From: an uncultured Erysipelotrichaceae bacterium | GTDB lineage: Bacteria; Bacillota_I; Bacilli_A; Erysipelotrichales; Erysipelotrichaceae | Length of the DNA: 64,000 nucleotides | Direction: 5' to 3' | Assembly: GCA_902786245.1 (NCBI GenBank) | Contig: CADABS010000007.1 | Coordinates: 1 to 64,000 of the forward strand | Part shown: positions 30,783 through 33,017 of the stretch, piece by piece | How positions within the stretch are numbered: position 1 is the first letter of the stretch | Layout: the number at the start of each line of letters is the position of its first letter | Translations under genes and position numbers: made by a program | Notes under the pieces: generated by a model | What the model saw: the letters and a program-made list of their open reading frames with translations, nothing else | Told to the model about the DNA's origin: nothing | The model's database searches: none

Positions 30783-31298
30783 TTACTTCACGATCAGTTT
30801 TACGATCAGCGGTATCAGGATGAGCTGGCCGATGATGCCGGGCACCGCATTAAGGAATGCGCCGGCCATGAATGCCTGCATTGTAAAGGCATTGCCGGCA
30901 GCCCCTAATAATACGACTTCGGCAAGGCCCCAGACGATGCGTCCGCACAGCATGGCAATGATCAGCGTGATATAGATCTGCACCAGACCGCGTTCTTTCA
31001 TCCGGCTGAAAATCAGACCGCTGACCAGACCGTAGGTGCACAGTTCAAATGCCATGGCAAGGGCATTGGGATACATCGGCGGCATGCCGAAGAGCACCGA
31101 ACGCAGCAGCGGGCAGATGAATCCGATCAGGGCACCATACTGCCAGCCGCAGATGAATCCGCACAGAAGCACGGGATAATGCATCGGGCACAGCATTGCG
31201 CCGATCTGGGGAATCTGTCCGGTAATAAACGGAAGTACCTGTCCGACTGCCAGCAGCAGCGCTGCCATCACAAGATTCTTTGTTTTTGTCTGTGTCAT
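30783..31298 (-). CDS. ECF transporter S component, substrate unknown
   Basis: A 171-residue membrane protein with about six hydrophobic segments, the size and topology of substrate-binding S components of energy-coupling-factor vitamin importers. The N-terminal LLLAVGQVLPFITGQIPQIGAMLCPMHYP block and the LRSVLFGMPPMYPNALAMAFEL loop are shared with a conserved but mostly unassigned S-component family. It would dock to a shared EcfT-EcfA module encoded elsewhere. The ribosome-binding site GAAAGGAAA follows a transcription terminator (31316-31347), so expression is almost certainly controlled by the leader RNA. The ligand is unknown. Confidence 0.85.
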   Translation of the reverse strand: MTQTKTKNLVMAALLLAVGQVLPFITGQIPQIGAMLCPMHYPVLLCGFICGWQYGALIGFICPLLRSVLFGMPPMYPNALAMAFELCTYGLVSGLIFSRMKERGLVQIYITLIIAMLCGRIVWGLAEVVLLGAAGNAFTMQAFMAGAFLNAVPGIIGQLILIPLIVKLIVK

Positions 31299-31315
31299 AT
31301 TCTGTTTCCTTTCAT

Positions 31316-31397
31316 AAAAAAGGCATATCTAAAATACAGATATACCTTCTGGTTTCATTGTATGCGCTTCTGCGCAATGCATGGCTTCTGCCATACC
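31316..31397 (-). ncRNA. Structured 5' leader with attenuator upstream of the ECF S component
   Basis: In the minus-strand RNA two small hairpins follow each other: ATGGC-AGAA-GCCAT (31394-31381) and TGCGC-AGAA-GCGCA (31376-31363). Flanking GTAT/ATAC could close a three-way junction. About 15 nt later an intrinsic terminator (AGGTATATCT / AGATATGCCT, then TTTTTT) ends just before the ribosome-binding site. This is the layout of a transcriptional riboswitch. It matches no class I recognise; the identical AGAA loops differ from the ACGR loops of guanidine-II. Confidence 0.6.
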
Positions 31398-31402
31398 TGC
31401 TT

Positions 31403-31431
31403 ATCATATAGTTATTTCATCAGTCCTGCAA
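31403..31431 (-). promoter_or_regulatory. Possible promoter of the ECF leader RNA
   Basis: The minus strand reads TTGCAG, a 17-nt spacer, then TATGAT. The predicted transcript would start within a few bases of the first leader hairpin. The -35 is weak and lies inside the preceding gene. Confidence 0.4.
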
Positions 31432-32065
31432 GCATTTCACCCGCAAAATCGCGGCCGAGTGCTTCGGAGTTGATGCAGAGATCATAAATGTTCCTGTCGC
31501 CCCATACGGTATCGCTGTGCGCCATATGATAATTGGAGCGGATATTGTCTTCTTCTCTGATCTTTCCGATGATTTCCTCCCGGTCCGTCAGATCCGCATA
31601 GAGCGGGCTGATGCGGGCTCTTGCGACCTTTGCGTCCATATCCGTCGCATACATCAGAACATAATTGCATGTATAGCCCCGGGATGTGATCATTTCAACG
31701 GTTGCCCGGTCATGGATCAGGCACGGTCCCGCTGCCAGTGCTTTATCGATTGCCTTGTCAAAGGCAGCCGTGATTTTTGCATACATCGGATCGGAGACGA
31801 TTTCTTCCCGGGTCAGACCGCTGCGTCTGAGTCTGTTTTCAAAGGCAGTGACATCATCGATTGTCACGCCTTCTTCCGGTACCAGTTCCAGCAGGATCAC
31901 TGCATCGTAGTACGTATATCCTGCTGCGCGGCATGCCTTTACACCGATCATCCTGCCCATCGAGCAGTATTCGCTGTCCAGCAGAACGCAGTCAGGTTTC
32001 GGATGCTTTTTTTCAAATTCAGCCATTCCGGCAGTATTCAGTGCCGTGCGTACATCTTCAGCCAT
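31412..32065 (-). CDS. Cytidylate kinase-like family protein, degenerate P-loop
   Basis: A 217-residue protein matching the cytidylate-kinase-like family: the GRMIGVKACRAAGYTYYDAVIL segment, a central acidic helical insertion, LIHDRATVEMI and YATDMDAKVARAR with the basic lid. Normal members begin with a GxxGSGKST-like loop; here the equivalent is DSEYCSMGRMIG, which lacks the Gly-Lys. It may bind nucleotides weakly or have another role. The ATG at 32065 has AAGGAGA upstream; a longer in-frame version would run into telA. It follows telA by 16 nt. Confidence 0.72.
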   Translation of the reverse strand: MAEDVRTALNTAGMAEFEKKHPKPDCVLLDSEYCSMGRMIGVKACRAAGYTYYDAVILLELVPEEGVTIDDVTAFENRLRRSGLTREEIVSDPMYAKITAAFDKAIDKALAAGPCLIHDRATVEMITSRGYTCNYVLMYATDMDAKVARARISPLYADLTDREEIIGKIREEDNIRSNYHMAHSDTVWGDRNIYDLCINSEALGRDFAGEMLAGLMK

Positions 32066-32081
32066 AAGTATCTCCTTGAAT

Positions 32082-33017
32082 TTATTGACTGATCCAGCCG
32101 GCCAGGGATATTCCCTTCCGGCGGGCTTCATTTCCGTTTTCTTCCAGTTTCAGCACCGCCTGCAGCGAGCGGTCCAGTGCTGTCTCTGCCTGCAGGAAGA
32201 TCTGCAGATCGATGGTCGGTTCCGCCGGCGATCCGGCAGAACGGATGCCGTAGGAAAGCAGGATCGTATTCCGGTAGAGCGGAAATGCGTCCGTATACAG
32301 TTTCTCCAGTGTTTCCGCCATGGACAGATCCGCTGCACTGATCAGTCTGATCTGGGTCATTGTCTGCATCGGAAGGGCTCTGCTGACTTTCAGGTCTTCC
32401 AGCTTCCGCTCCAGACGGGCAAGCAGCTCCCGGTAGTCCTGGGCCCGCATCGTGTCTTCCAGAAGATCTGTCTGCTGCGCCCGCTTCACAAGATCTGCGT
32501 ATCTCCCCTGTTCTTCGTTTTTCAGGCAGCACTTTCCGGCATAGATATACAGATCGAATTCGCGGATGGTATCCATGCACTGTTCATAGAAGCGCTCCAT
32601 CCTCCGGCTGTGGCGGATCAGGGAGCCTCTGTGTATTTCCAGCCTTCTGCCTGTTTCCGTCATGACCGCGGAAAAGGGATCATAGATCTTTCTGAAATCC
32701 GCATACGGCAGCGGACCTGCGGAACAGATGCGGCGGACATTGCCTGTGAAGGTTTCCTTCTGGCGGATCAGCTTCCGGATATCCTTCGCTGCCTCCTGCA
32801 GATCGCTGTGCGGCACATCCAGCAGAGAGGATTCCGAAAAATGAATGACTTTCTGCCGGGCCGCTGCCCCGTACTGCATGATCATCGCTGTATCGGTGAC
32901 GTCGATCTTCGCTGCGAACGCTTCTGCATAGCGCCGGTTGGCTTCGCTCAGCTGGGTCGCATACAGTCCGCCCGGTTCTGTCTTTTCCAGTTCAAGTTCA
33001 ATCTGATGATCTGCCAT
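32082..33017 (-). CDS. TelA family (toxic anion resistance) protein
   Basis: A 311-residue, almost entirely helical and charged cytosolic protein. The N-terminal IDVTDTAMIMQYGAAARQKVIHFSESSLL and the C-terminal MQTMTQIRLISAADLSMAETLEKLYTDAFPLYRNTI blocks are the conserved ends of the TelA family. It is somewhat shorter than the usual 350-400 residues. TelA proteins were named for tellurite resistance and are linked in some species to envelope stress; a direct function is not established. It pairs here with the kinase-like gene downstream. Confidence 0.82.
   Translation of the reverse strand: MADHQIELELEKTEPGGLYATQLSEANRRYAEAFAAKIDVTDTAMIMQYGAAARQKVIHFSESSLLDVPHSDLQEAAKDIRKLIRQKETFTGNVRRICSAGPLPYADFRKIYDPFSAVMTETGRRLEIHRGSLIRHSRRMERFYEQCMDTIREFDLYIYAGKCCLKNEEQGRYADLVKRAQQTDLLEDTMRAQDYRELLARLERKLEDLKVSRALPMQTMTQIRLISAADLSMAETLEKLYTDAFPLYRNTILLSYGIRSAGSPAEPTIDLQIFLQAETALDRSLQAVLKLEENGNEARRKGISLAGWISQ

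Follow-up and report, generated by a model that had tools for sequence, protein, structure and literature searches.

The leader and the gene that it precedes

The window analysed here, a stretch of 64,000 nucleotides of DNA from an uncultured Erysipelotrichaceae bacterium, carries on its minus strand a short leader that separates the stop codon ending a Cytidylate_kin2 gene from the ATG at 31298 of a gene for an ECF transporter S component. The upstream gene (31412..32131, minus strand), named after its domain match, lies on the same strand and is not thought to be part of the switch. The gene presumably under control (30783..31298, minus strand) encodes a protein of 171 aa that matches PF12822 (E 6.7e-16; 59.2 bits, above the gathering score of 30.7) and PF07155 (E 2.6e-9), in agreement with an earlier note on this DNA, which had called it an orphan ECF S component. 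The word orphan also holds, with no substrate-level NCBIfam assignment found; the model of the folate S component FolT, TIGR04518, gives 20.1 bits against an NCBIfam cut-off of 60, and by sequence the protein has no clear solved relative.

Judged from its sequence, the promoter of the leader would be weak. The possible promoter pointed out in the earlier note can be recognised as TATGAT (31403..31408, minus strand), 17 nt after TTGCAG (31426..31431, minus strand), a poor -35 element that shares three of six positions with TTGACA and lies within the upstream gene, at its 3' end; a consensus scan found no promoter at the leader. In several homologous leaders (e.g. L096, L100 and L004) a TATAAT-like box stands just before the first hairpin. 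Since the leader starts right after the stop codon of the upstream same-strand gene, read-through from the Cytidylate_kin2 gene is also possible.

The first hairpin, HP1 (31379..31396, minus strand; GUAUGGC[AGAA]GCCAUGC), has 7 bp, and the second, HP2 (31363..31376, minus strand; UGCGC[AGAA]GCGCA), has 5 bp; in both, a C-G pair closes an AGAA loop. They are followed by an intrinsic terminator stem-loop (31318..31350, minus strand) of 14 bp, some of them A-U pairs formed with the U tract, by its U-run (31316..31321, minus strand) and by the Shine-Dalgarno sequence GAAAGGA (31307..31313, minus strand). The scanner missed this terminator too; part of its T-run belongs to the stem. The minimum free energy structure of 31411-31299 consists of exactly HP1, HP2 and the terminator (-34.3 kcal/mol; z -5.12, with none of 200 shuffles folding as well), which bears out the two adjacent AGAA hairpins and the strong terminator before the ribosome-binding site that had been noticed earlier. 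They are not twins, as a third hairpin had been missed at 31353-31344. This hairpin, HP3 (31344..31353, minus strand; ACC[AGAA]GGU), is a candidate antiterminator: it shares sequence with the terminator's 5' arm, so that the two are mutually exclusive, and when the nascent leader is folded with the 3' arm of the terminator still unmade, the minimum free energy structure holds HP1, HP2 and HP3. Taken by itself, HP3 amounts to -1.9 kcal/mol (3 bp) and the terminator to -16.1 kcal/mol. The layout proposed before, that of a transcription-terminating control leader, is thus supported.

Such an arrangement is rarely produced by chance. Neither two NGAA hairpins with stems of at least five pairs nor three with stems of three pairs occurred when the leader was dinucleotide-shuffled 20,000 times, and on both strands of the window the leader is the sole cluster of such NGAA hairpins. 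Across the loci L003-L105 and the window, 17 clusters of C-(A)NGAA-G hairpins were counted, compared with 0-1 for permuted loops and four for the complementary class. At least two such hairpins, one with a stem of at least 5, were present in 32 of the 102 regions of 300 nt taken upstream of other S components, a set without the window and one duplicate contig, and in none of the 102 when the first 300 nt of the S-component genes were taken as a control. When 19 other loop classes were sought in the same 102 regions, 16 gave no region, two gave one, and AGAN, which overlaps AGAA, gave eight.

Conservation in homologous leaders

Homologues of the S component were matched in 49 of 60 relatives, and 74 further loci came from a genome-contig collection. 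In alignment A3, ten leaders from the window's genus align as HP2, HP3 and terminator; the loops of both hairpins are NGAA in all ten, while their stems vary on both sides. Across homologues the loop is either a tetraloop, NGAA, or a pentaloop, ANGAA. Covariation of HP2 and HP3 scores 0.530 against a shuffle mean of 0.221, a value reached by none of 500 shuffles and by none of the slid controls (at most 0.135), and for HP2 with the terminator the score is 0.554 against 0.283, again with 0 of 500 shuffles and above the slid controls. An alignment of 19 sequences, which was fitted to the structure, gives 0.532 against 0.231 (0 of 500 shuffles). Furthermore, RNAalifold finds HP2 and HP3 unaided in the ten nascent leaders, that is, without the 3' arm of the terminator. 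The earlier note had offered a lack of conservation or covariation upstream of homologues as one refutation, and this refutation fails, both having been found.

HP3 often has one mismatch in homologues, with 76.9% of cells paired. Loop-to-loop spacing is variable, at 17-26 and 21-36 nt in nine leaders, and no conserved enclosing stem or junction was found in the window's genus. The leader is not universal either, as the upstream region of the G005 S component (L003, 67% identical) has no such hairpins. These relatives are mutually dependent, and many of the matches come from one genus.

Genes preceded by the leader

A covariance model, R1, was trained on leaders of nine S components and of one LarC gene. 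Its sole significant match in the window's genome is the window leader itself, and at E<=0.1 it matches in 17 of 40 genus genomes. Outside the training set it marks ten places, three of which are plain terminators or coding sequence and seven of which are on target, before the S component (G062, G017, G011, G032), LarC (G060), CbiM-CbiQ (G006) and the MACF gene (G001), which encodes a small membrane protein whose sequence begins with MACF. LarC is here the family PF01969 (nickel insertion) and CbiM the family PF01891 (Ni/Co uptake). A second model, R2, built on 19 sequences, matched 61 of 294 genomes of the order at E<=0.02. At E<=1e-4 in the 294 genomes, 30 of its 32 matches precede target genes (S component 21, LarC 4, MACF 3, CbiM 2; elsewhere 2), as do 13 of the 15 outside training, some of them from near relatives of training species; many of the weaker matches, inspected to E 0.0042, are ordinary terminators or coding sequence. 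In a class-level search at E<=1e-3, five of 395 genomes were matched. One is the window's own; in G479, from another family, the S component is preceded by a real leader of three hairpins, and the other three matches are plain terminators.

The position of these matches places the leader before four gene kinds, and by the same reckoning the window's S component would belong to a regulon-like set with LarC, CbiM and the MACF gene. In two genomes, G003 and G031, the leader stands before LarC and the S component comes after it, and hairpin clusters were found by script in six of 30 fetched LarC loci (L148, L151, L156, L157, L162, L164). The LarC gene of the window's genome (C7:89267-90481) sits behind another gene and is without such a leader, and the CbiM gene of that genome (C43) has a different upstream element. 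Judged by their families, the other targets in the genus, LarC and CbiM, are nickel-related and not vitamin-related.

Two side observations concern these searches. In several relatives the S component is followed by a pair of small membrane proteins, the first of which begins with MACF, with an NGAA leader of its own (L006 2160-2874, L013 2091-2848; also L215, L227, L230 and L274); these proteins match no Pfam or NCBIfam family. R2 also matches AGAA hairpins at G186:C30:708-775 (L223) and G005:C30:6538-6605 (L233). They overlap the end of a coding frame in part and lie 170-245 nt ahead of a protein with a match to PF02906, the iron-only hydrogenase domain; this may be chance or another target.

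Proposed antitermination and alternative readings

By analogy with ANTAR antitermination, the leader is best read as a factor-dependent antitermination leader, to which we assign a probability of roughly 0.5. This reading is favoured by the three identical loops, the last of which overlaps the terminator, and by the nascent structure that holds all three hairpins; by constant loops on covarying stems, together with the loop-class control; and by the matches of R1, R2 and the class-level search before few gene kinds. Against it stand the weakness of HP3 in the window and its frequent mismatch in homologues, the leader without hairpins at L003, the kinship of the relatives, and the capacity of repeated short-loop hairpins to bind a ligand, as guanidine-II does.

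The last point leads to the second serious reading, which the earlier note had adopted in the form of a vitamin riboswitch. A true riboswitch, in which the tandem hairpins would bind nickel, a nickel-cofactor intermediate or the substrate of the S component directly, in the manner of guanidine-II, is possible, though we hold it to be the less probable of the two. Conserved structure upstream of homologues is present together with an expression platform, as is generally asked of a riboswitch, and the strict loop conservation, the length and layout of the leader and the presence of CbiM and LarC among the targets are in its favour, as are the Oscillospirales leaders of alignment A6, in which positions outside the loops are invariant too. 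The guanidine-II (mini-ykkC) riboswitch consists of two short hairpins with identical loops and a variable linker, and is in this respect alike; nevertheless its loops are ACGR, whereas those found here are NGAA (AGAA in the window) and, unlike guanidine-II loops, not self-complementary, and no guanidine-related genes were seen. The lack of a conserved junction or enclosing stem in the genus and the varying spacing speak against a riboswitch in general, and the absence of LarC from 19 of 20 distant genomes checked against one with a nickel-pincer ligand. Because repeat spacing is variable and no enclosing stem is conserved, separate protein sites are favoured over one aptamer; the repeated same-loop hairpins resemble binding sites of a loop-recognising factor more than a small-ligand aptamer.

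The statement that the loops match no recognised class has held against the catalogue. The leader (31200-31500) has no covariance-model match at E up to 10 among 4227 families of Rfam 15, and over the whole window only an rRNA end is matched, at 1-59 on the minus strand, which is the beginning of a 16S rRNA gene truncated by the edge of the window. The preQ1-II, THF, TPP, cobalamin and NiCo riboswitches are leaders of ECF or metal transport genes, a position that the window leader shares while having no Rfam match. None of them was found at gathering score in the leaders of 40 homologous loci, where Rfam gave unrelated T-box, glmS, tRNA and Clostridiales-1 matches only. No description of the motif was found in the literature, among the matches listed. 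The control system therefore looks, by sequence, like one outside Rfam.

A plain terminator of the upstream gene, with accidental hairpins and no regulation, would fit a leader that begins at the stop codon of a same-strand gene, and intergenic terminators are common. It is nonetheless improbable in view of the loop-specific conservation (32 of 102 loci, where most other loop classes reach 0-1), the covariation and the association with few gene families.

Still less probable, and already weakened, is a classical ANTAR antiterminator site of the EutV/NasR type. ANTAR domains are encoded in 14 of 60 relatives and 13 of 20 distant genomes, which would allow for such a site. Against it, PF03861 (ANTAR) has no match at E<=1e-3 in the window's genome, G000 (an assembly 96.5% complete, in which a gene could be missed), and was not found in two other leader-bearing genomes, G023 (98% complete) and G052 (100%), nor in seven of the 20 distant genomes. 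Furthermore, in 11 of the 12 ANTAR loci fetched from relatives, the flanking proteins are what we take to be glutamine-synthetase-like and/or glutamate-synthase-like; L112 has neither. In these loci (L106-L111 and L113-L117) ANTAR response-regulator-like genes adjoin the glutamine-synthetase-like and mostly also the glutamate-synthase-like genes. As a separate observation, two tandem PF03861 matches lie in one open frame of 283-285 aa at G780:C64:14127-14435 and G782:C100:9388-9699. With regard to the RNA, PMC3369931 describes ANTAR targets as tandem hairpins, the second of which overlaps a terminator, with hexanucleotide loops in which the first base is A and the fourth is G. The first feature is found in the window leader, which has the same architecture, and the second is not, its loops being AGAA; a passage of PMC8934654 suggests that EutV may exclude tetraloops.

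Leader-peptide attenuation through a 21-codon ORF that starts at 31394 and ends inside the terminator is hardly credible and was rejected by loop spacing: the ORF is open in the window and the first two loops are read within GCA GAA codons, against which the loop distances are not multiples of three in seven of nine leaders measured and no suitably spaced Shine-Dalgarno sequence precedes the ATG at 31394.

Proposed mechanism and candidate regulators

In the antitermination reading, the strong terminator would form by default and transcription would stop before the S-component gene. Folding and comparison show that the nascent leader can fold into three C-(A)NGAA-G hairpins while the terminator is still being made. 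A factor that recognises the loop when two or three copies stand side by side, probably a protein and most likely a dimeric RNA-binding one, would then clamp hairpins 1-3, and the clamped HP3 would hold the 5' arm of the terminator, so that the gene is transcribed. This resembles the ANTAR leaders (eut, nas, ami), with their tandem small hairpins, repeated loop and last hairpin that excludes an intrinsic terminator, and also ANTAR systems in that one regulon has several such leaders. It differs from them in the C-(A)NGAA-G loops of 4-5 nt, in the frequent presence of three hairpins and in its targets, the S component, LarC and CbiM.

The commonest neighbour of the leaders is DUF3842. In 21 of 52 leaders its ORF terminates shortly before HP1, a count in which positions were partly set by hand, near-identical species were kept, five CbiM leaders have one ANGAA hairpin only and four leaders have little upstream DNA. 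By leader kind, it is directly upstream in 8 of 26 S-component, 6 of 10 LarC, 6 of 9 CbiM and 1 of 7 MACF leaders. Among the 74 genome-contig loci, DUF3842 lies within the fetched locus in 16 of 21 leader-bearing cases vs 6 of 53 others (Fisher p 1.3e-7, uncorrected for kinship), where leader-bearing stands for at least two hairpins; by this definition L085 and cases with one hairpin are missed, and L059 is counted although it duplicates L012. Contig C7, to which the window belongs, does not encode DUF3842. The fold predicted for the protein (pLDDT 87.8) is like Rossmann/FtsZ-like nucleotide-binding folds, with a best structural match of Z 9.2, rmsd 3.0 and 123 aligned; Foldseek gave no match at E<=1e-3, and no RNA-binding fold is among the matches listed, which decides nothing. 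No mention of DUF3842 was found in the literature searched. From this predicted fold and its position, DUF3842 is a candidate partner or sensor, and it may act as a sensor, bind the RNA or simply belong to the set like the other genes.

More tentatively, an RNA-protein control class can be proposed, in which runs of 2-4 C-(A)NGAA-G hairpins, with a non-ANTAR regulator for which DUF3842 or a protein working with it would be the first candidate, control an ECF S-component family across Erysipelotrichia and Clostridia, plus nickel uptake and cofactor genes in the genus, by terminator or ribosome-site competition. The findings as a whole offer a regulon, testable by experiment, for the S-component family and for nickel genes in Firmicutes of the gut, and they suggest a loop-binding regulator or ligand; the identity of the factor would tell what these bacteria sense when switching the transporter on, and would add to the few tandem-hairpin antitermination systems known so far.

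Distant Clostridia and the nickel theme

In Oscillospirales and Gemmiger, folding places two hairpins in a leader able to pair with the Shine-Dalgarno region, and distant Clostridia thus appear, on weaker evidence, to have similar hairpins in leaders that can hide the ribosome-binding site. Covariation in the Oscillospirales leaders is slight. R3, a model trained on them, matched none of 392 genomes of the window's phylum, none of which is known to carry that form. Two hairpins are present in 16 of the 20 more distant genomes checked, which were taken from the loci list, and LarC in only one of them, so that the nickel-pincer signal cannot be general; this cofactor, considered as a universal signal, is weakened, and nickel is only a local theme.

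Two further observations concern the nickel genes of the genus. In same-genus genomes without an NGAA leader at CbiM, a conserved C-tract/G-tract element, ACCCCC..GGGG.GGCTT, lies upstream of a TATAAT-like box at the CbiM genes (L193 in G000:C43, L173, L176, L179, L183 and L188-L192), and nine of these ten loci, L173 being left out, had no match in Rfam. Operators of CsoR/RcnR are C/G tracts, and by analogy the element looks like a DNA operator. Finally, LarC matches come in two pieces in G049, G050, G051 and G056, with a stop in one, like the known larC1/larC2 arrangement.
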